33,048 nucleotides of DNA, taken from NCBI GenBank assembly GCA_021804095.1, contig JAJZKQ010000007.1, positions 1 through 33,048 on the forward strand, written 5' to 3'. A program made the translations under genes and the position numbers. The stretch comes from Microcaldota archaeon (lineage in GTDB: Archaea > Micrarchaeota > Micrarchaeia > Micrarchaeales > CABMGC01). Every line of letters starts with the position of its first letter. Position 1 is the stretch's first letter. Below, one piece after another: positions 8,115 through 29,860 of this stretch. The notes below the pieces were generated by a model. It had not been told where the DNA came from, ran no database searches, and worked only from the letters and a program-made list of their open reading frames with translations.

Positions 8115-8840
8115 ATGTCTACAATAACTTCTCTACTGCTTCTGAGTGGTATATTGGCAATAACAGAGATATTCAAACGTTTCAAAAATAATAAAAATCC
8201 AGGAAAAAGCATAACTCTTACCAGCATAAACCTGCGTTTCGGTTCAGATGTCCATGCCCTGCAGGGCAAGGAATTCGACAAAGAAGAATTCGAGCTTAAG
8301 ATACCATTCAAGAATACAATGGGCAGCGGACTTCTTCCTGACAATATCAAAGGCCCTGAGATAACTATAAAAAAAATAAGCGTGGATTCTCCATTCCAGC
8401 TAACCCAGTTATCACCCAAGCCTCCGCTCAAGGTAGGATATCTCTCAAGCACGAGCTTCAATATGCGGCTGCGCTCCCCCTCACCAAACTACACCGGACC
8501 TGTAACCATCTCGTTTGAGACAGATACCAGCGATAATGTCAATATAGACATCAACAAAGTGGTGCTTATAAAAGGTGATATGCGGAGAGAGATTGAAGAC
8601 ACGGCAACAAACATGATACTCAAGAAATCGCAGATAATAAGAAGGGACATACAGCTGTACAAAATCCTGAAATACGACCAGGCAGTATCCTCAGTGAAGG
8701 CAAATCCTCCGTTTGAACTAGTCTCATCCGAGCCAGCGCTGCCTTTTACTATAGACAGGAAGGATAGCTACGTTATAAAGCTCTTCATCAGATGCCCAGA
8801 TTTCAATTATGCAGGACCTCTCGAGATAACCTTTCTATAA
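8115..8840 (+). CDS. Hypothetical protein with N-terminal TM segment and a probable internal duplication
   Basis: Uninterrupted 241-codon ORF in a gap between annotated genes; two related segments ending 'SPSPNYTGPVTISF' and 'CPDFNYAGPLEITF'. Confidence 0.7.
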   Translation: MSTITSLLLLSGILAITEIFKRFKNNKNPGKSITLTSINLRFGSDVHALQGKEFDKEEFELKIPFKNTMGSGLLPDNIKGPEITIKKISVDSPFQLTQLSPKPPLKVGYLSSTSFNMRLRSPSPNYTGPVTISFETDTSDNVNIDINKVVLIKGDMRREIEDTATNMILKKSQIIRRDIQLYKILKYDQAVSSVKANPPFELVSSEPALPFTIDRKDSYVIKLFIRCPDFNYAGPLEITFL

Positions 8841-9781: not shown

Positions 9782-10969
9782 ATGGAACGATTAGGGATAG
9801 CTTTCTATACTGATAGTTATCTCCCTGCAGTTGATGGCGTCGTCACATCAATACTCAATTTCAAGGATGAGCTTGAGCACCGAGGCCATGATGTCTACAT
9901 ATTCTCAAGCAAGAAGCTCTATACTGAAGCTAAAAAGTCGAAGAATGTATTTCTTTATCCCGGGATAGACTTCAAGCCATATCCGCAGTACAGCATGGCA
10001 ATATTTCCATATAACTCCATGCTAAAGCTCAAGGATCTTAAAATAGACGTAATACACGCGCATACTCCGCTGGTCATGGGTTTTGCCGCAATGGTAAGCG
10101 CAAAGCTTGGTAAATATCCTATAGTCGGCTCCTACCATACCATAATAAACAACAAGTCTGTAGTGCAGGACTATTATCCCAAGAACAAGCAGCTGAAAAA
10201 AATCACCTCAAAATACATGCTTAAGTACATAAAATTCTTCTACAGGAGATGCAATGCTACGACAGTTCCCTCGGACTCCATAAAAACATTCCTGGAAAGA
10301 TACGGCGGCATACAAAACATATCTGTAGTGCCAAACAGCATAGACCTAAAGACATTCAATCCCGGTGTTGACGGATCCGTCCTTCGCGCCAGCCTGGGCA
10401 TAAGAGATAATGAAAAAATGGTTCTTTATCTGGGCAGGATCTCCAAGGAGAAGAAGATAGAGGTAATGCTTAAGGCGGCAGCCTATCTTCTTAAAAAGGA
10501 AAAAAACATAAAATTCATAATAGGCGGAACAGGCCCTGCTGAACAGCACTACAAAAAGATGGCAGTCAATCTGGGACTGGAAAAGAGCGTAAAATTCATA
10601 GGATTCGTAGGCAATAAAATCCTTCCCAAGCTATATGCCGCCTCGGATCTCCTCTGCCTGCCATCCACATTCGAGACCCAGGGGATAGTCTCTCTAGAGG
10701 CGATGGCAACCGGCAGGCCTGTCGTCGGAGCCGACTATCTTGCGCTATCCGAGCTCATAATAAACGGGAAAAACGGTGAAAAATTCATTCCCGGCAATTA
10801 TATCTCATGTGCAAAAAAAATAGAAAAGGTTTTAAATGATACATCTCCATATATAGGCAGTGCATTAAGTACTGCAGCTCAATTTTCAGTTAAAAAAGTG
10901 ACCGATAGATTGCTTGATGTATACGATTTAGTCCTTACAAACTACAACGGTGTATATACTGACAGATAA
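9782..10969 (+). CDS. GT4-family (GT-B fold) glycosyltransferase
   Basis: 'MGIAFYTDSYLPAVDGVVTSI'-like start (MERLGIAFYTDSYLPAVDGVVTSI), 'VPNSIDLKTFNPG', 'YLGRISKEKKIEVMLKA', 'PSTFETQGIVSLEAMATGRPVVG'. Confidence 0.93.
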   Translation: MERLGIAFYTDSYLPAVDGVVTSILNFKDELEHRGHDVYIFSSKKLYTEAKKSKNVFLYPGIDFKPYPQYSMAIFPYNSMLKLKDLKIDVIHAHTPLVMGFAAMVSAKLGKYPIVGSYHTIINNKSVVQDYYPKNKQLKKITSKYMLKYIKFFYRRCNATTVPSDSIKTFLERYGGIQNISVVPNSIDLKTFNPGVDGSVLRASLGIRDNEKMVLYLGRISKEKKIEVMLKAAAYLLKKEKNIKFIIGGTGPAEQHYKKMAVNLGLEKSVKFIGFVGNKILPKLYAASDLLCLPSTFETQGIVSLEAMATGRPVVGADYLALSELIINGKNGEKFIPGNYISCAKKIEKVLNDTSPYIGSALSTAAQFSVKKVTDRLLDVYDLVLTNYNGVYTDR

Positions 10970-11597
10970 TGAAATAAAGACAGAAGAAAAAAGCCCTAAG
11001 AGCGAAGGCTCATCCTCAGAGGTTAAGAAGCCAGTTCCTACTCAGAATGAGGAGCTTATGAAAGCCATAGAGGAAGAGCGCAAGAAGAAGAGCGCACTCA
11101 TCGATGAGCTCAGGAGGTACAAGCGCAGGCTTGCGTATAAGCTAGCTGAGAAAGACGCACTTGCAAAGCTCAATGCTGAAAACTCTGCAAACAGAAAGGG
11201 CACGAAGAACATAGGCTATCTGAGGAGGAAGAAGGAGTCGCTTGAATTCAGGATATCAACGGAGGCATTCACCCTTAGCGCTGAGAAAGATCTTATAAGA
11301 AAGAAGCAGGAAGTAGATGCCGAGCTGAACGAGGCCATAAACAACTACCGAATGAAGCGCAAGGCAGAATTTGTAAATGGGGACATAGAGGAGCTCACTA
11401 AAAAATCAGACGAGACGTATGCAAAGCTGCAGGAGCTGGAAAAAAGGCTCGATGTATTATATGGCAACCTGAGAAGGCAGCGCGGCCAGCACAGGGAGAA
11501 GAAGCATGAATACCACCAGGCACCTGTGCAGGAGGTAAGCTTCGCCGATATAGCAATCATAAAAGGCAAGAAGGAAGACAAGAAGAACGGCGAATGA
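10950..11597 (+). CDS. Archaeal coiled-coil protein (COG1340-like)
   Basis: Highly charged heptad-like sequence throughout; overlaps the upstream GT4 gene by 20 nt, so the start may be slightly downstream. Confidence 0.75.
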   Translation: MYILTDNEIKTEEKSPKSEGSSSEVKKPVPTQNEELMKAIEEERKKKSALIDELRRYKRRLAYKLAEKDALAKLNAENSANRKGTKNIGYLRRKKESLEFRISTEAFTLSAEKDLIRKKQEVDAELNEAINNYRMKRKAEFVNGDIEELTKKSDETYAKLQELEKRLDVLYGNLRRQRGQHREKKHEYHQAPVQEVSFADIAIIKGKKEDKKNGE

Positions 11598-13419: not shown

Positions 13420-13875
13420 TCAGACATCTACTATTGCCCTGATTGTGCATCCTGATTCCGATCTTAGTACCGCAAATCCTGAAGGGGTTACTGCCTTGAT
13501 ATCAAGCATGGTATAATCCCTATCTGTATCCTTGTAGAACAATCTTCCTTCTATGGTGAATCTTCCTGCTGATTTTTTAAGATGCTCTACCTTAAAACTA
13601 AATGCGTTAAGATATAACGATGACCTCTTAGTTACAATATCTTGCAGGACAAACCACGCCAGATTCTCAATGTTACCTGCCTTCTCAATTATCTTTAACG
13701 ATCTGCTTGGGTTTCCAAGAGCAGATAATTTCTTAGTATCAAGTACTATTCCAAGCAATGCTAAAGCTGCGTTCTCCAATGCCTCTTCAAAACTATCGCC
13801 ATAAGCCTCAAATTCAACATCTGCCATATGCTTAAGGTATCTGAAACGCCGTTTTCCCATAAGTATCTGCCTCAA
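13420..13875 (-). CDS. Archease family protein
   Basis: 'FRYLKHMADVEFEAYGDSFEEALENAALALLGIV' and C-terminal 'CTIRAIVDV'. True start may be the internal Met of 'MGKRRFRYL'. Confidence 0.87.
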   Translation of the reverse strand: MRQILMGKRRFRYLKHMADVEFEAYGDSFEEALENAALALLGIVLDTKKLSALGNPSRSLKIIEKAGNIENLAWFVLQDIVTKRSSLYLNAFSFKVEHLKKSAGRFTIEGRLFYKDTDRDYTMLDIKAVTPSGFAVLRSESGCTIRAIVDV

Positions 13876-13942
13876 AAAAGCTATATATGTCTATCAGTAC
13901 AAATTATAAACGTCCTGTGAAGACAAGAGTAACTGCTGAAAA

Positions 13943-15526
13943 ATGATGAAACCCATATCGACGGAGGACACTGGTGTATTGTTGGAATATGATAAACGGG
14001 TAGGAATTCTCATTTTTTCAATACTCCTGGCAGTATCGGTTGCCAGCTCTTTTTATATAACCCCATTCTCAATAGGCGATACCGACCCCTCGACATATGT
14101 GGCAGTGCCTCTTCTTATGCTTCCACTATTCTCATTGTTCATGCTCAAGGAGGAGATAAAGCCTAATACAACAAAGCGTGACATAATGCTAGGGATATCC
14201 ACCTTCGCCCTTCTCGCTGCGATTACTGTATTTCTGAGATATCAGCTTTCCTATCTTTTTCTTAGCTACAGAATAGACATGCTCCTATTCCCTATGCTTA
14301 TAATCTCCTTCGCATTTCTCCTTTTCGGGTCTTCGAACATTCACAAATTCAAGTATATCGCCGTATATTCCATGCTTGCCTCATCTCTAATAGCCGCTCC
14401 CATAATAATGGCAAATTTTGCATTTACAGAATTCAATACACATATAATCTACCTCATTCTGCGGATATTCATACCTGGAATATCACTCATATCACCATTA
14501 ACTGTGGCTACAAACGGATACCAGATAAGCATAGGAGAAACATGTGTGGGGATAGGCATACTTATCTCAATAATCTTATTTCTCATGCCACTAGCATATC
14601 TCTATAACGGAGAAAGGAAGAAGAAATTTCTATGGCTCCTAAGCGCAATAATCATCTTATTCCTGCTCAATATAGGAAGAATGTTCAGCATAGCCTTATT
14701 CTGGCTTCTTTACGGTCCAACAAGCGCCCTGATGGAAGTCCATGTCTTTGCAGGCGTTCTTCTCTTCTATATCTCCATAATACTTATGGTCCTATTATCG
14801 GGAAGATACGGCTTGGAATTAAAAACAGAGAGTCAAAAAAACAGGACTCAAAACAAAGCAGGAAAGGCAAGCAAAACAAAAAGAGCAGCAACCTATTCTG
14901 CATATGGCATAATCATAAGCATACTTATGGCAATAGCATATTTTGCCATGACTTATAACTACTCTTCAGCACTCTACATCTCGCAAATACACCTGTATAC
15001 GCCTTCATATCCCAAATTAACTAGCGAAGGTGCTTATGCAATTGCAGGTTCCATATTGAATCGTTCTGAAACACTTAAAAGCATATCCCTGAGCGGAAAC
15101 TTCAGCGAAATTCTCTCTGTATATGGACAAAATATAAACTACTCAGAGCCTCTAATAGTCTACATGGGCTACTACAAAAACACCGGGCTTCCCATACCTG
15201 TTTTGGGAAGAACAGGGATAAGCAGCATGCATTTCACTAACCAGAAAGGAATCTCCGGAAGTATCTATTATTTAGAATCAAACATGTCCGGATTTCTGGT
15301 GTATCATGCCATAATCCCAGATATAGGGCTAAACGGCTCTTCTGCAATTCCAATTTCAACATATCTGATACTTCCCGCTTCAGAACTAGAAACCTCCGGT
15401 GCATGCACAAATGGGTTTTCATACACCGACTACCTGATTAATATAGCAAATCCTACACTATACAATACCACTTTAAGGCAGCAGCTAAATTCAGGATACT
15501 GCCTTTTCAAAAAGGTGCTATCTTGA
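13943..15526 (+). CDS. Archaeosortase/exosortase-family membrane protein with about 200-aa extracytoplasmic C-terminal extension
   Basis: Putative triad Cys (ISIGETCVGIGI), Arg (LNIGRMFSIAL), His (MEVHVFAGVLLF) within TM segments; after one more TM, a soluble segment 'SSALYISQIHLYTPSYPKL...'. Confidence 0.8.
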   Translation: MMKPISTEDTGVLLEYDKRVGILIFSILLAVSVASSFYITPFSIGDTDPSTYVAVPLLMLPLFSLFMLKEEIKPNTTKRDIMLGISTFALLAAITVFLRYQLSYLFLSYRIDMLLFPMLIISFAFLLFGSSNIHKFKYIAVYSMLASSLIAAPIIMANFAFTEFNTHIIYLILRIFIPGISLISPLTVATNGYQISIGETCVGIGILISIILFLMPLAYLYNGERKKKFLWLLSAIIILFLLNIGRMFSIALFWLLYGPTSALMEVHVFAGVLLFYISIILMVLLSGRYGLELKTESQKNRTQNKAGKASKTKRAATYSAYGIIISILMAIAYFAMTYNYSSALYISQIHLYTPSYPKLTSEGAYAIAGSILNRSETLKSISLSGNFSEILSVYGQNINYSEPLIVYMGYYKNTGLPIPVLGRTGISSMHFTNQKGISGSIYYLESNMSGFLVYHAIIPDIGLNGSSAIPISTYLILPASELETSGACTNGFSYTDYLINIANPTLYNTTLRQQLNSGYCLFKKVLS

Positions 15527-16506
15527 TATTCGAATTTTCATCCGGAGCTGTGATATTCAGAAAAGACCAAGACGGAAAGATACTTTTTCTCTTATTGGAG
15601 AAAGCAAACGGCGAATATGATCTTCCAAAAGGCCATATAGAAAAAGGCGAGAGTGCTGTAGAGGCTGCCAAAAGGGAGATAACCGAAGAGACAGGATTAT
15701 CGGTAGAATTTATACCCGGATTCTCAATAATGACAAAGTATTTTTTCTACAAAAACAAATCAAAGGTTCTTAAGAAGAATAAGCTATTCCTGGCTGAAGT
15801 ACGTTCATCAAAGGTGACAATCTCCCCTGAACATAAAGGATATTCATGGCTTACTTTTGAAGAAATAACTGAAAAAATAAAATACAAGAACACAAAGACC
15901 CTCTTCAAAGAAGCAAGTTCCTACATAAGAAAGAAGGAATTGATGGACAAGCTTAATTCAGAATATGCAAAGCTGCCTTCTTCTGAGAAAATCTGGAATC
16001 TCAGCAAGAGGCTAGTTCCAGGAGAAGGCCCACTAAACGCTTCAGTAATGCTAGTGGGTCAGGCTCCCGGAAAGAATGAGGACGAATCGCTCAGGCCCTT
16101 CATAGGCAGGTCAGGAAAGCTGCTTTCATCCATGATGCACAAAGCAGGCATAAACAGAAGCGATACCTACATAACAAGCACTGTGCAGTTTTTCCCTCCT
16201 GCAAACAGGCTTCCTACCGAAAACGAGGTAGAGCTCTGTATGCCGTTTCTAATGCGGCAGATTGAGATAATAAAACCCAGTTTCATAATTACCCTAGGGA
16301 GCCTTTCTGGAAAAGTCCTTACCGGAGTAGAAAGCATTGAGAAGGAGCACGGCAGAATCATCAAAAGAAACTCGATTACTTATATGGTCACATATCATCC
16401 TGCAGCGGCCTTAAGGTTCAAAAGAGTGCTGGAGCTCATGTCTGAAGACTTCAAGAAATTCGGAAGAGAGATAAATGCCGGAACTATTGAAATCAATAAG
16501 GAATAA
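15523..16506 (+). CDS. Fusion protein: N-terminal Nudix hydrolase (Ap4A hydrolase-like) + C-terminal family-4-type uracil-DNA glycosylase
   Basis: Nudix box 'GHIEKGESAVEAAKREITEETGL'; UDG motifs 'VPGEGPLNASVMLVGQAPGKNEDESLRPFIGRSGKLL', 'PPANRLPTENEVELC', 'TYHPAAALR'. TTG start overlapping the upstream TGA stop. Confidence 0.92.
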   Translation: MIFEFSSGAVIFRKDQDGKILFLLLEKANGEYDLPKGHIEKGESAVEAAKREITEETGLSVEFIPGFSIMTKYFFYKNKSKVLKKNKLFLAEVRSSKVTISPEHKGYSWLTFEEITEKIKYKNTKTLFKEASSYIRKKELMDKLNSEYAKLPSSEKIWNLSKRLVPGEGPLNASVMLVGQAPGKNEDESLRPFIGRSGKLLSSMMHKAGINRSDTYITSTVQFFPPANRLPTENEVELCMPFLMRQIEIIKPSFIITLGSLSGKVLTGVESIEKEHGRIIKRNSITYMVTYHPAAALRFKRVLELMSEDFKKFGREINAGTIEINKE

Positions 16507-16538
16507 AGACATTCCCAGCCTAATATCCTGCAATGACG

Positions 16539-16613
<75 letters not shown>

Positions 16614-21265: not shown

Positions 21266-22852
21266 ATGACAAATAAGAATCTCATAATCGCATCAGTTGG
21301 AATAATTGTCATAATTGCTGTTATAATAGCTGCCGTTTCACTTACTTCTTCAGTACCAAAAACATCTACCACTTCAACAACCTCTCCCGGAACTACGTCA
21401 GTTAATACTTCTGTACAAAATCAACAGATATCCACATCAGTCCTGCTTACTGATCCCCCAGTAGTTCCAAATGGCACAACCTCCCTTCTGATACATTACT
21501 CTTCAATAAGCATACATTCAATATCTTCTAATGGCTGGCTGTCATCAAACACACAAGGAAACATAAACCTGCTGAATCTCACCAACACCTCAGTAGTTCT
21601 CGCAAATCTCAACATCTCGCCAGATTCCAGCCCTAATCTTGTAAGGTTCTATATCTCAAATGCAAGCATAACAATAAACGGAACAGTGTACAATGTCACA
21701 GTTCCAAGCGCAGAGGTTACGGCTGAAATTTCTAACTACACCAGCGCAAATGCTTATCTGACTTCAAGTATACTAATGCAGTTCTCTCCTACTATAGTTA
21801 CTATATATACTAACACAACTCCAGACTTCATACTTGTTCCTTCAGTAAAGGCTGTGGTAGTCGGGAATGTATTGGCTGGAAAAAGGCCTCAGGAAGGCGA
21901 AATGCTTCCATTGACTAAGGCTGAAGACAGATCTCTCAAAGATGCAACTCCAAATATAACAATTACCAATGCTTCGATATCCCAGTCGAATAACACTACC
22001 ACCGTATCGTTCACTGTTACTGACAACTCAAATTATTCTGTAAACCTCATGCATGCAAGCATAAATGGGGAGGAGAACATAAGCATCAACACCACAGCGG
22101 CATCTGCTGTTGCGAATTCAATAACAAGAAGGGTAGACGACATAGTAAACCAGATTCAAAACAATACAGAAAACGCATCAATCAATTCTACTGACAAAAC
22201 TCAAGTAAACGAAAGCAGTTCAGGGTATAACACCCATACTGACATAAACGAATCGACAAACGCAAGCACTAAGTATCCTGCTGAAAATTCCTCAGCAAGT
22301 TCCTCTGTAAACATATCAATTACAGGCAACGGCAAGCTAATAACTCCTGCAACAAACCAGCGAATATCATCCACATTCAAAACCGGATTAGGGATTGGAA
22401 AATTCAACAACTACAACATAGAACTTTCAGACAGGCTTGAAAATGACATGAACGGGATAGCAGGAAACTCAACATTAAGCACTTTTGTAAACAACTCAAT
22501 AATGAACGGCACATTAAATACAACTTCTTTCAGAAATGAGCTATCCGATAAAATAGAAGGCTTCATATCGCAAAGATATAAAGAAAACGAGGCCTTCCAG
22601 AATCATAATCATGTAATACAATTCCAGATATCTGGAAACGGAACCCTACAGTTACCTTTCTCAGAAGACCAATTTGCAAATAATCTGGGATATGCGCTTC
22701 AACCTGGACAATCCCATACCTTCACATTTATTGGAAGGATGACCCTTGCAAATGGACGTATGCAGATATCACTCATTCCTGGGCAGAATTATACTCTAAA
22801 TCTCCAGGGAGACATGGGTGCGAGGGCAGAGGCAAATCTCACTGCAAGATAA
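21266..22852 (+). CDS. Secreted/membrane-anchored, N-X-S/T-rich protein with DUF4382-like N-terminal region
   Basis: N-terminal TM, Ser/Thr linker, 'STSVLLTDPPVVPNGTTSLLIHYSSISIHS...WLSS...NLLNLTN...PSAEVTAEI', and about 30 N-X-S/T sequons. Confidence 0.82.
   Translation: MTNKNLIIASVGIIVIIAVIIAAVSLTSSVPKTSTTSTTSPGTTSVNTSVQNQQISTSVLLTDPPVVPNGTTSLLIHYSSISIHSISSNGWLSSNTQGNINLLNLTNTSVVLANLNISPDSSPNLVRFYISNASITINGTVYNVTVPSAEVTAEISNYTSANAYLTSSILMQFSPTIVTIYTNTTPDFILVPSVKAVVVGNVLAGKRPQEGEMLPLTKAEDRSLKDATPNITITNASISQSNNTTTVSFTVTDNSNYSVNLMHASINGEENISINTTAASAVANSITRRVDDIVNQIQNNTENASINSTDKTQVNESSSGYNTHTDINESTNASTKYPAENSSASSSVNISITGNGKLITPATNQRISSTFKTGLGIGKFNNYNIELSDRLENDMNGIAGNSTLSTFVNNSIMNGTLNTTSFRNELSDKIEGFISQRYKENEAFQNHNHVIQFQISGNGTLQLPFSEDQFANNLGYALQPGQSHTFTFIGRMTLANGRMQISLIPGQNYTLNLQGDMGARAEANLTAR
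22620..22644. repeat. 25-bp direct repeat copy 2 (aattccagatatctggaaacggaac)
   Basis: Identical to 20600-20624. Confidence 0.95.
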
Positions 22853-27532: not shown

Positions 27533-29404
27533 ATGAGGACACTTCTAAAATACTCTGCGTTTTTGATGATTGCCGCATTCTTTTTAGGCACTGTGAGTGG
27601 ATACACTACACAGATACATGCTCCTGCTGTTCTTCTAAGCGAGAACCAGGGAGTGCTCACTGTAATACAGCTTAATCTGACTCAGGGCAATGGCAATGTG
27701 TCAATAAGCGGCCCATCAAAGGTCGGGAATTCAACTCTTCAGTCAGCTATTACGGCAGCAAACTACGCCTCAAAATATCTAGGAGTGAACGAATCCAACT
27801 ACAATTTCTCGTATACAATAGAGGACAATGGCTCAGATGTCTCAGGCCCTAGCGGTGGTCTTGCATTAACCCTCCTCGCAATCTCCGCCCTGGAGCATAC
27901 ACAACTTCGCGGAAATTTCACGGTTACCGGAACCATCTCTCCTTCCGGCCTGGTAGGACAGGTAGGCGGAGTATATGACAAACTTAACGCGGCAAAGAGA
28001 TACGGAATGAGATTCGCACTGATTCCTTCAGCCTCGCAGCAGAGCATAGAATATCTCATCTACTACATAGCGCAGCAGGAATTCAGGATTCCCGTGGTAG
28101 AGGTATCAAACGCATCGCAGGCACTTCCTTATGCTACAGATAAATATACTCCAAAGATAACTCCGCTAGCACTTAATTTCTCAAGCGACTACAAGCTCAA
28201 AGGTCTGCCCATGGCTCCTGTAAACTGCAGCGATTGCAACATGAGCTATTTCAGGCAGCTCATCAACTTCACATTCGGAATGCTCTCTAATTCCACAAAC
28301 CTGATATCCGGAAACCTGAGTGTTGTAAAACCCCAGATCGACTCACAGCTCAGAATCTATGAAAACATATCCGGAAAAGGATATCTATATCAGGGAGCAG
28401 ATCTCGCGTTCCTGCAATATCCTACTGTGTTCACTCTGATGAACTCTGGCAATTACAGCGTTCAAGGCGCAAATAATATCTTCAATAATGTATATTCGTA
28501 CTGTTCTTCATTGACGCCTCCAAATATGACCACTGCCAATTACGAATATGTAGTCGGAGGGCAATTAAGGCAGGAATGGGCAATGCAAAATCTGGCAGAG
28601 ATACATTCATTTATAAACGCATCAAACACAACAGACGATGTTATCTTTGGCCTAAACAATATAGCTCCATCATATGCATGGTGCAGAAGCACTTCTGAGA
28701 TGTATCACATAGCAGGAGAGATAGGAGGAACTCCAATGGGCTACTCTTCAAAACTCAAATCGGAAGCACTGGCAGCGATAGACAGGGCAAACGCTTCAGG
28801 CACAGCTGTACCTTTATATCTTCTTGCAGCAGAATCCGCATATAACTCAAGCCAATATCCTGCAGCCATTTTTGGTGCGGACTATTCTGTCTCTTTCAGC
28901 GCAAATGTAAATCCTTCAATAAACAACACCGAATTGTTGTCCATGATAAATGCAAACGCTGCAAATTCGACATATGGCATATGGTCATCAGAATTTGCCA
29001 ATTCTGCGATGTTTGCAGCATACCAGGCAAACCTCACGGGAGGCAACGAAACATATAATCTTACAAGCGCATATGTAACATCGGAGCTTGCTGCGAATCT
29101 TGCAAATGCAGAAGAGGAGACAGCATCTGGCCTTGTTCCTATAAATGAAAGCATTGCAAACGTGCTCACCCAAAACACGCAGACTGCAACCACACAACCT
29201 GAAAACAGCACAGCCATAACCTCTATAGAATACCAACTCAATCAGATCTATTCCGTGCTTCTGATATTGGTTATCATAGTCGCAATACTCGCCCTGATAC
29301 TCTTCTTCATATTGATAAGGCTATTCAGGCTTGGAAATGAGAATATTCGGAACACTGCCAGAAATACCAACTCCAGGGCCGCAAGCCAGAAAAGGAAGGT
29401 GTAA
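27533..29404 (+). CDS. Secreted/membrane-anchored Lon-like (S16, COG1750-type) serine protease lacking an ATPase domain
   Basis: Signal peptide, catalytic Ser 'SDVSGPSGGLALTLLAI', Lys 'GGVYDKLNAAKRYGMRFALIP', C-terminal TM and basic tail. Confidence 0.9.
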   Translation: MRTLLKYSAFLMIAAFFLGTVSGYTTQIHAPAVLLSENQGVLTVIQLNLTQGNGNVSISGPSKVGNSTLQSAITAANYASKYLGVNESNYNFSYTIEDNGSDVSGPSGGLALTLLAISALEHTQLRGNFTVTGTISPSGLVGQVGGVYDKLNAAKRYGMRFALIPSASQQSIEYLIYYIAQQEFRIPVVEVSNASQALPYATDKYTPKITPLALNFSSDYKLKGLPMAPVNCSDCNMSYFRQLINFTFGMLSNSTNLISGNLSVVKPQIDSQLRIYENISGKGYLYQGADLAFLQYPTVFTLMNSGNYSVQGANNIFNNVYSYCSSLTPPNMTTANYEYVVGGQLRQEWAMQNLAEIHSFINASNTTDDVIFGLNNIAPSYAWCRSTSEMYHIAGEIGGTPMGYSSKLKSEALAAIDRANASGTAVPLYLLAAESAYNSSQYPAAIFGADYSVSFSANVNPSINNTELLSMINANAANSTYGIWSSEFANSAMFAAYQANLTGGNETYNLTSAYVTSELAANLANAEEETASGLVPINESIANVLTQNTQTATTQPENSTAITSIEYQLNQIYSVLLILVIIVAILALILFFILIRLFRLGNENIRNTARNTNSRAASQKRKV

Positions 29405-29407
29405 TCA

Positions 29408-29860
29408 ATGGAAGCCAAAAAAGGCACCGATGTCTTCTGCAGCGAATCGATAAACAAAGGAATATTCTTCAGGACAGAGCATACCATGGCTTTATGCGAC
29501 ATAGCCCCTGTAGTCTATGGCCATTCTCTCATAATACCAAGAAGACATGTACTTGACTTTTCGGAGCTGAGCGAAGAAGAAGTGTTGGACATGCAATCTG
29601 TGATAAAGAAGGTCAAGCCAGTGATTCTGAAATTATATGGGGACAGCTCGAATTCTTATGATCTCACCGCACAGATAGGGGAGTATTCGGGAATGAGCGT
29701 AAGGCACCTCCATTTCCATATAATACCACGCAGGAAAAACGACGAATATCAAGAAGGCAAGAGTGTCTTCGATGCCATAGAACATGTAAAGCGCCTCGAT
29801 AATGACGAGTATCTGAAGAGAGTGGCTATCCTAAGAAAAGAACTAGATTGGCGCGAGTAA
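29408..29860 (+). CDS. HIT-family nucleotide hydrolase/transferase
   Basis: 'VVYGHSLIIPRRHVLDFSEL' and HIT motif 'VRHLHFHIIPRRK'. Confidence 0.95.
   Translation: MEAKKGTDVFCSESINKGIFFRTEHTMALCDIAPVVYGHSLIIPRRHVLDFSELSEEEVLDMQSVIKKVKPVILKLYGDSSNSYDLTAQIGEYSGMSVRHLHFHIIPRRKNDEYQEGKSVFDAIEHVKRLDNDEYLKRVAILRKELDWRE

Follow-up and report, generated by a model that had tools for sequence, protein, structure and literature searches.

What reactions could be carried by a single open reading frame (ORF) that joins a Nudix hydrolase domain to a uracil-DNA glycosylase (UDG) without most of its iron–sulfur cysteines? The ORF lies in a 33,048-nucleotide stretch of DNA from Candidatus (Ca.) Micrarchaeales, which is called the window below. 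We consider it rather probable that the product is a bifunctional repair/house-cleaning enzyme of this order, combining a cluster-independent UDG, its cluster site filled by a hydrophobic plug, with an ApnA-type Nudix hydrolase. The features of the locus are listed in Table 1.

Table 1. Positions in the window of the Nudix–UDG gene, its parts and its neighbours.
Feature	Position	Strand	Description
Exosortase-like membrane protein (Pfam Exosortase_EpsH)	13943..15526	+	Directly upstream; context, not part of the enzyme
Nudix–UDG fusion gene	15523..16506	+	327 aa, TTG start, no internal stop
Nudix hydrolase domain, Ap4A-hydrolase type	15523..15885	+	Residues 1-121; Pfam, phmmer, Foldseek, conservation
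Linking helix	15886..15966	+	Residues 122-148; AlphaFold model
Family-4-type UDG domain without Fe-S cysteines	15973..16464	+	Residues 151-314; Pfam UDG, TIGR00758, Foldseek
Fe-S ligand positions 1 and 2	15973..15987	+	Leu151 and Glu155 in place of Cys-x2-Cys
Motif A GQAPG	16057..16071	+	Residues 179-183; Gln180 = E41 position of Thermus UDGa
Motif 3 S-T-V-Q-F-F-P-P-A-N-R	16177..16209	+	Residues 219-229; Ser219 = N80, Phe223 = ligand 3, Asn228 = N89
Cys239, sole ligand-position cysteine left	16237..16239	+	Alignment
Motif B HPAAALR	16396..16416	+	Residues 292-298; catalytic His292
tRNA-Ile(GAT)	16539..16613	+	Conserved downstream neighbour; context

Gene Structure and Domain Layout

The profile searches showed that the window protein matched Pfam NUDIX at residues 8-118 (E = 1.6e-15) and Pfam UDG at residues 166-305 (E = 8.2e-32). 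It passed the cut-off of the NCBIfam model TIGR00758 (UDG_fam4) with 157.5 bits vs 125.3, and missed that of the type-4 UDG equivalog NF040953 (163.3 vs 250). The initial annotation, which had described one ORF with a Nudix box and a family-4-type UDG, was thereby borne out. An AlphaFold model, which had been proposed with that annotation as a check, was built from a 41-sequence alignment and gave a confident two-domain protein (mean pLDDT 95.9, pTM 0.91). A single helix (residues 122-148) runs unbroken from the C-terminal helix of the Nudix domain into the N-terminal helix of the UDG domain. In the Foldseek search, family-4 UDGs ranked first for the UDG half (4zby, E 1.1e-17, target TM 0.81), and the Nudix half matched the Ap4A hydrolases 3i7u, 4ijx, 4mpo, and 1ktg.

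A frameshift or assembly join had been named as a danger at 15940-15960. The helix is unbroken there, the junction is also present in aligned orthologs, and the full-length fusion occurs in dozens of independently assembled genomes. An artefact joining two neighbouring genes, for which the unusual architecture alone speaks, has next to no probability and is refuted by the orthologs, since the fusion is full-length in about 113 genomes, which stem from many separate assemblies and include the complete chromosome of Ca. Micrarchaeum sp. A_DKE. Comparison of the window gene with four same-genus orthologs gave pS of 0.7-0.95, so that synonymous sites are saturated, and pN of 0.17-0.31 in both domains. 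Purifying selection acts on the Nudix and UDG halves, and neither is decaying.

Nudix Domain

Conservation was counted in a set of 93 distinct fused proteins. The Nudix box (GX5EX7REUXEEXGU, G37-L59) was intact, with G37, E43, R51, E52, E55, and E56 in place, and each catalytic position was kept in 92-93 of the 93 proteins. The EHxxYxWL motif was located at residues 103-110 (Glu103 in 92/93, Trp109 in 93/93). Residue 73 was Tyr in 85 proteins and Phe in 5, and it aligned with the specificity Tyr of ApnA hydrolases (Y82 of 3u53). In a clan-wide analysis, Tyr is the ApnA-hydrolase specificity residue (Y87, 1XSC numbering) (PMC5389931). The phmmer search matched the Nudix half to human Ap4A hydrolase 3u53 with an E value of 2.6e-13, and its best solved sequence relatives were the human, nematode, chlamydial, and Aquifex Ap4A hydrolases.

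Assignment of the Nudix half to the Ap4A-hydrolase type is supported by both the sequence and the fold. Glu52, Glu55, and Glu56 would bind Mg2+, Tyr73 would hold the adenine, and the domain would cut Ap4A or a related 5'-5' polyphosphate asymmetrically. The idea that the Nudix domain compensates for a missing dUTPase is not favoured; a dUTPase/Dcd-family match was found in 51 of 59 genomes, and the match in the window's genome was weak.

UDG Domain without Cluster Cysteines

The ligand sites were mapped by alignment to the Sulfolobus tokodaii UDG (4zbx). Leu151, Glu155, and Phe223 stand at the first three sites and only Cys239 remains, exactly the cysteine loss that the initial annotation had described; its readings of motif A and motif B were also correct. 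Cys was present at ligands 1-3 in 0/93 fused proteins. Ligand 1 was Leu in 87, Ile in 5, and Met in 1; ligand 2 was variable and never Cys; ligand 3 was Phe in 90, Tyr in 2, and Ile in 1. Ligand 4 was Cys in 91/93. Hydrophobic residues near the former ligand sites were conserved as well (Trp158 in 91/93, Leu160 in 93/93). In canonical enzymes a single cluster is enclosed by all four ligands, so the conserved Leu, Phe, and Trp residues at this place suggest that a hydrophobic plug fills the former cluster site. Leu151, Trp158, Leu160, and Phe223, with Cys239, would take over the structural job of the cluster. That the UDG half is a family-4-type UDG without a cluster across the whole order is well supported by the alignments.

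Lost cluster biosynthesis was ruled out as the cause of the cysteine loss, since the profile search found SUFBD genes in 59 of 59 genomes. The persistence of SUF genes indicates that the cluster loss is specific to this UDG. Replacing Cys by Ser in archaeal family-4 UDGs reduces activity by only about 40% (PMC5295032), which supports the view that the cluster is dispensable. Several SufB ORFs were unusually arranged: in genomes G038, G039, G063, G077, G010, G170, G130, G097, G193, and G155 they have about 840-900 aa, and close to the start of the SUFBD match several hundred residues interrupt it, as an intein would.

Cluster loss is not unique to the Micrarchaeales fusion. Among 80 viral family-4-type relatives (loci L201-L280), 9 had at most one ligand cysteine, with the catalytic motifs kept. 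All nine differ from the fusion in retaining the motif-A Glu and N80 and in having no Nudix domain attached. Some of these nine sit inside much longer ORFs (616-881 aa). The distinguishing trait is the combination of cluster loss, GQAPG, Ser219, and the Nudix fusion, not cluster loss alone.

Genomic Neighbourhood and Distribution

The last 4 bases of the exosortase-like gene, which include its stop codon, are shared with the start of the fusion gene. The exosortase-like gene was found directly upstream, within 60 bases, in 71 of 80 related loci, and tRNA-Ile(GAT) in about half of the related loci. The stability of the neighbourhood in most related loci points to a gene of the chromosomal core rather than to a mobile or defence element. 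The block itself (window 13420-16613; loci L077-L156) consists of archease (-), exosortase-like (+), Nudix–UDG (+), and tRNA-Ile(GAT) (+) genes, and the overlap of the exosortase stop with the fusion start recurs in many genomes. Elsewhere in the window, the 623-aa product of 27533-29404 has a Lon-type proteolytic domain, and its C-terminal region contains a hydrophobic stretch; it appears to be a Lon-like protein that lacks the ATPase part and is anchored in the membrane. Three ORFs (21266-22852, 8115-8840, and 10950-11597) had no Pfam match; the product of the first is rich in Ser/Thr/Asn, has an N-terminal hydrophobic stretch, and is probably a surface protein.

The fusion spanned both domains in 62 of the 79 genomes of the window's family, at 43-100% identity, and was again the rule in the sister family. 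Across the order, 120 of 164 genomes passed the family-4 model, 112 of them with an ORF of at least about 300 aa; with one further fused ORF below the cut-off (G134), about 113 of the 164 genomes have the fusion. Among the best 80 of 371 genome matches, the named records with the fusion were Micrarchaeota; the NCBI taxonomy places the genus Ca. Micrarchaeum within Ca. Micrarchaeales. No fusion was seen in other Micrarchaeia families, none covering 80% of the query was found in phages or plasmids, and none occurred among the 80 best matches on viral contigs. Elsewhere in the class, the other families encode UDG and Nudix separately (by adjacent genes in L062). The initial annotation had also considered separate-gene orthologs with all four cysteines; those found belong to these other families, so they do not count against it.

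In the UDG tree, the fused UDGs of the order and those that stand alone in place form one group (98/98). L058 and L057, two UDGs that stand alone in other families, adjoin this group, and the whole group is supported with 100/97. L057 keeps only ligand 4 and L058 only the N-terminal pair; ligand 3 is absent in all members of the whole group, and more distant relatives keep all four ligands. Two or three ligands are already missing from the nearest stand-alone relatives, which places the cluster loss before the fusion. The simplest history from these sequences would be that ligand 3 was lost first, then the other ligands, and that fusion followed.

The two halves have also come apart. In L051, L052, L055, L056, and L196, the Nudix domain was deleted in place and the UDG directly follows the exosortase gene. 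At the exosortase locus of G111, the Nudix domain occurs by itself; the UDG of this genome is a different one, also without cluster cysteines. This other type was seen in L187, L188, and L189 (G111, G196, and G265), with the motifs GEAPGYEE, VVKSHP, and YFHPSYLLR and no cluster cysteines. Genera without the fusion can carry another UDG, UDGb-like in g12 and of another type in g33. These replacements would fit a UDG role for the fusion and halves that can live apart.

Does the UDG Half Excise Uracil?

One feature was missed in the initial annotation: the Asn that reads N3/O4 of uracil (N80 in Thermus UDGa) is Ser219 here. This position was Ser in 88 and Asn in 5 of the 93 fused proteins, and the E41 position of motif A was Gln in 91 and Glu in 2. 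In Thermus UDGa, E41Q lowers k2/Km from 2.4e5 to 2.7e2 (about 890-fold) and N80A lowers it to 5.5e3 (about 44-fold); E41Q is rescued by G42D (PMC5387724). The fused group has Gln-Ala, not Gln-Asp, in motif A, so the known rescue is absent. Since E41Q and N80S are both present, ordinary uracil excision cannot be assumed, and the sequence implies that there must be compensating changes, a slow enzyme, or a different substrate.

The other catalytic residues are kept. E47 (E186), F54 (F193), and H155 (H292) were found in 93/93 fused proteins, N89 (N228) in 92/93, and the motif-B Arg was invariant. Phe193 would stack on the flipped base, Glu186 would exclude thymine, His292 would stabilise the leaving uracilate, and Asn228 would position the water. 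These residues bear on the idea that the UDG half is weak or inactive and serves as a DNA- or lesion-binding module that brings the active Nudix domain to DNA. The strong weakening of the known family-4 enzyme by E41Q and N80 loss (PMC5387724) speaks for such a module, as does GQAPG being nearly fixed (91/93) while the Nudix box is fully intact. We regard it as unlikely, because a mere binder would not need H155, E47, F54, and N89, several genomes deleted the Nudix domain and retained the UDG, and fusion-less genera can carry other UDGs.

The UDG half may instead be active on another deaminated or modified base, in place of or besides uracil. Ser219 replaces an Asn that makes two hydrogen bonds to uracil N3/O4, and the equivalent position adjusts both activity and specificity in MUG (K68N; see PMC10776899) and in Brig1, a UDG-fold enzyme for a modified cytosine (PMC11078745). 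However, the fused proteins invariably have Glu186, whose Thermus UDGa equivalent keeps thymine out. Ser at N80 is also found in several UDGs of the class that have four cysteines and a normal motif A (L059, L067, and L068), so Ser alone need not change the substrate, and we judge a changed specificity to be quite unlikely. The same UDGs rule out N80S as a consequence of the fusion.

A working UDG is the most likely reading of the sequence, because the leaving-group and water-positioning residues are kept and no other UDG-fold gene was recognised in the window's genome (83% complete, so that a second UDG could be missing). As the sole recognisable UDG there, the fusion is most likely responsible for uracil removal in general. 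A second, MUG-like UDG is present in some genomes of the order, and in a few genomes no UDG was found. The second UDG at L191, L192, and L193 in some Micrarchaeales is MUG/TDG-like (GINPHFGSYARGIPFSNNK).

Relationship between the Two Activities

The fusion, together with the confident joint model, may suggest co-regulation or co-localisation of the two activities. Repeated in-place domain loss argues against obligatory coupling. The two functions look separable, since the Nudix domain was deleted in place several times with the UDG kept and stands alone in one genus. The cluster-free UDG proposed in the initial annotation is well supported, with its ligand cysteines lost order-wide, and the Ap4A-type Nudix domain is supported as well; the joint "sanitation" pathway that it had drawn from them is a hypothesis.

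Closer coupling would mean a distinct UDG subclass, marked by the plug and the motif-A Gln, joined to a Nudix domain that processes the product or end of the same repair event, such as 5'-adenylated DNA or cap-like ends. Such a two-step base-excision enzyme in one chain seems very unlikely. The Nudix half might also work on the ends of nucleic acids, such as 5'-adenylated DNA from failed ligation after base excision, which would place glycosylase and end-cleaning in one pathway. 5'-App-DNA contains a pyrophosphate linkage of the kind that Nudix enzymes cut, and AlphaFold predicts the two domains as one well-defined body. Besides recognising 5'-5' polyphosphates, Ap4A-type hydrolases can also accept molecules that resemble caps (PMC5389931). 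Against these points, the domains separate by deletion in several lineages, and a HIT-like gene in the window (29408-29860) might do this job; we consider end-cleaning highly improbable.

Comparison with Known Enzymes

The UDG half resembles family-4 UDGs (UDGa; S. tokodaii 4zbx/4zby, Thermus 1ui0, T. maritima 1vk2) in its fold (target TM 0.81-0.85), motif B, catalytic His, E47/F54/N89 equivalents, and match to TIGR00758. It differs from them in the loss of three of the four [4Fe-4S] cysteines, in the change of motif A from GE(A/G)PG to GQAPG, in Ser for N80, in the N-terminal Nudix domain, and in falling below the NF040953 cut-off. UdgX is likewise a family-4 relative with an altered motif A. 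However, the fusion lacks GEQPG, the R-loop KRRIH with His109, and any loop insertion; R229 and C239 are spaced as in 4zbx (11 residues in 92/93). UdgX membership was ruled out by GQAPG, the missing R-loop insertion, and a TIGR03914 score below the cut-off (113.6 vs 189.95).

The Nudix half shares the Nudix box, the specificity Tyr, EHxxYxWL, and the fold (target TM about 0.8) with asymmetrical Ap4A hydrolases (NUDT2, aq_158, and CT771). Unlike them, it is fused to a DNA glycosylase, and Ap4A hydrolysis is only predicted here. MutY/MUTYH also joins a DNA glycosylase to a Nudix fold. In MutY, the glycosylase is of the HhH type and carries an Fe-S cluster, and the Nudix-like domain is C-terminal and non-catalytic (PMC9266487), whereas the fusion has an N-terminal Nudix domain with an intact catalytic box and a UDG fold without cluster cysteines.

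Significance

No report of a Nudix–UDG fusion was found in the literature searched, which covered few subscription papers, and the gene does not appear in the papers on Ca. Micrarchaeum and Mia14. The protein appears to be a family-4-derived UDG that fails defining family-4 features, joined to an ApnA-type Nudix hydrolase: known kinds in a new pairing, independent of MutY. The fusion is predicted to be the main uracil-excising enzyme of the acid-living Micrarchaeales. The purpose of the Fe-S cluster in family-4 UDGs is still debated, and here a whole archaeal order manages without it. Some relatives represent intermediate stages that retain two ligands or one, and the organisms still have the genes for cluster assembly. 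As a natural E41Q enzyme, which laboratory mutagenesis would lead one to expect to be crippled, the fusion offers a direct test of the roles of the cluster and of the motif-A Glu.
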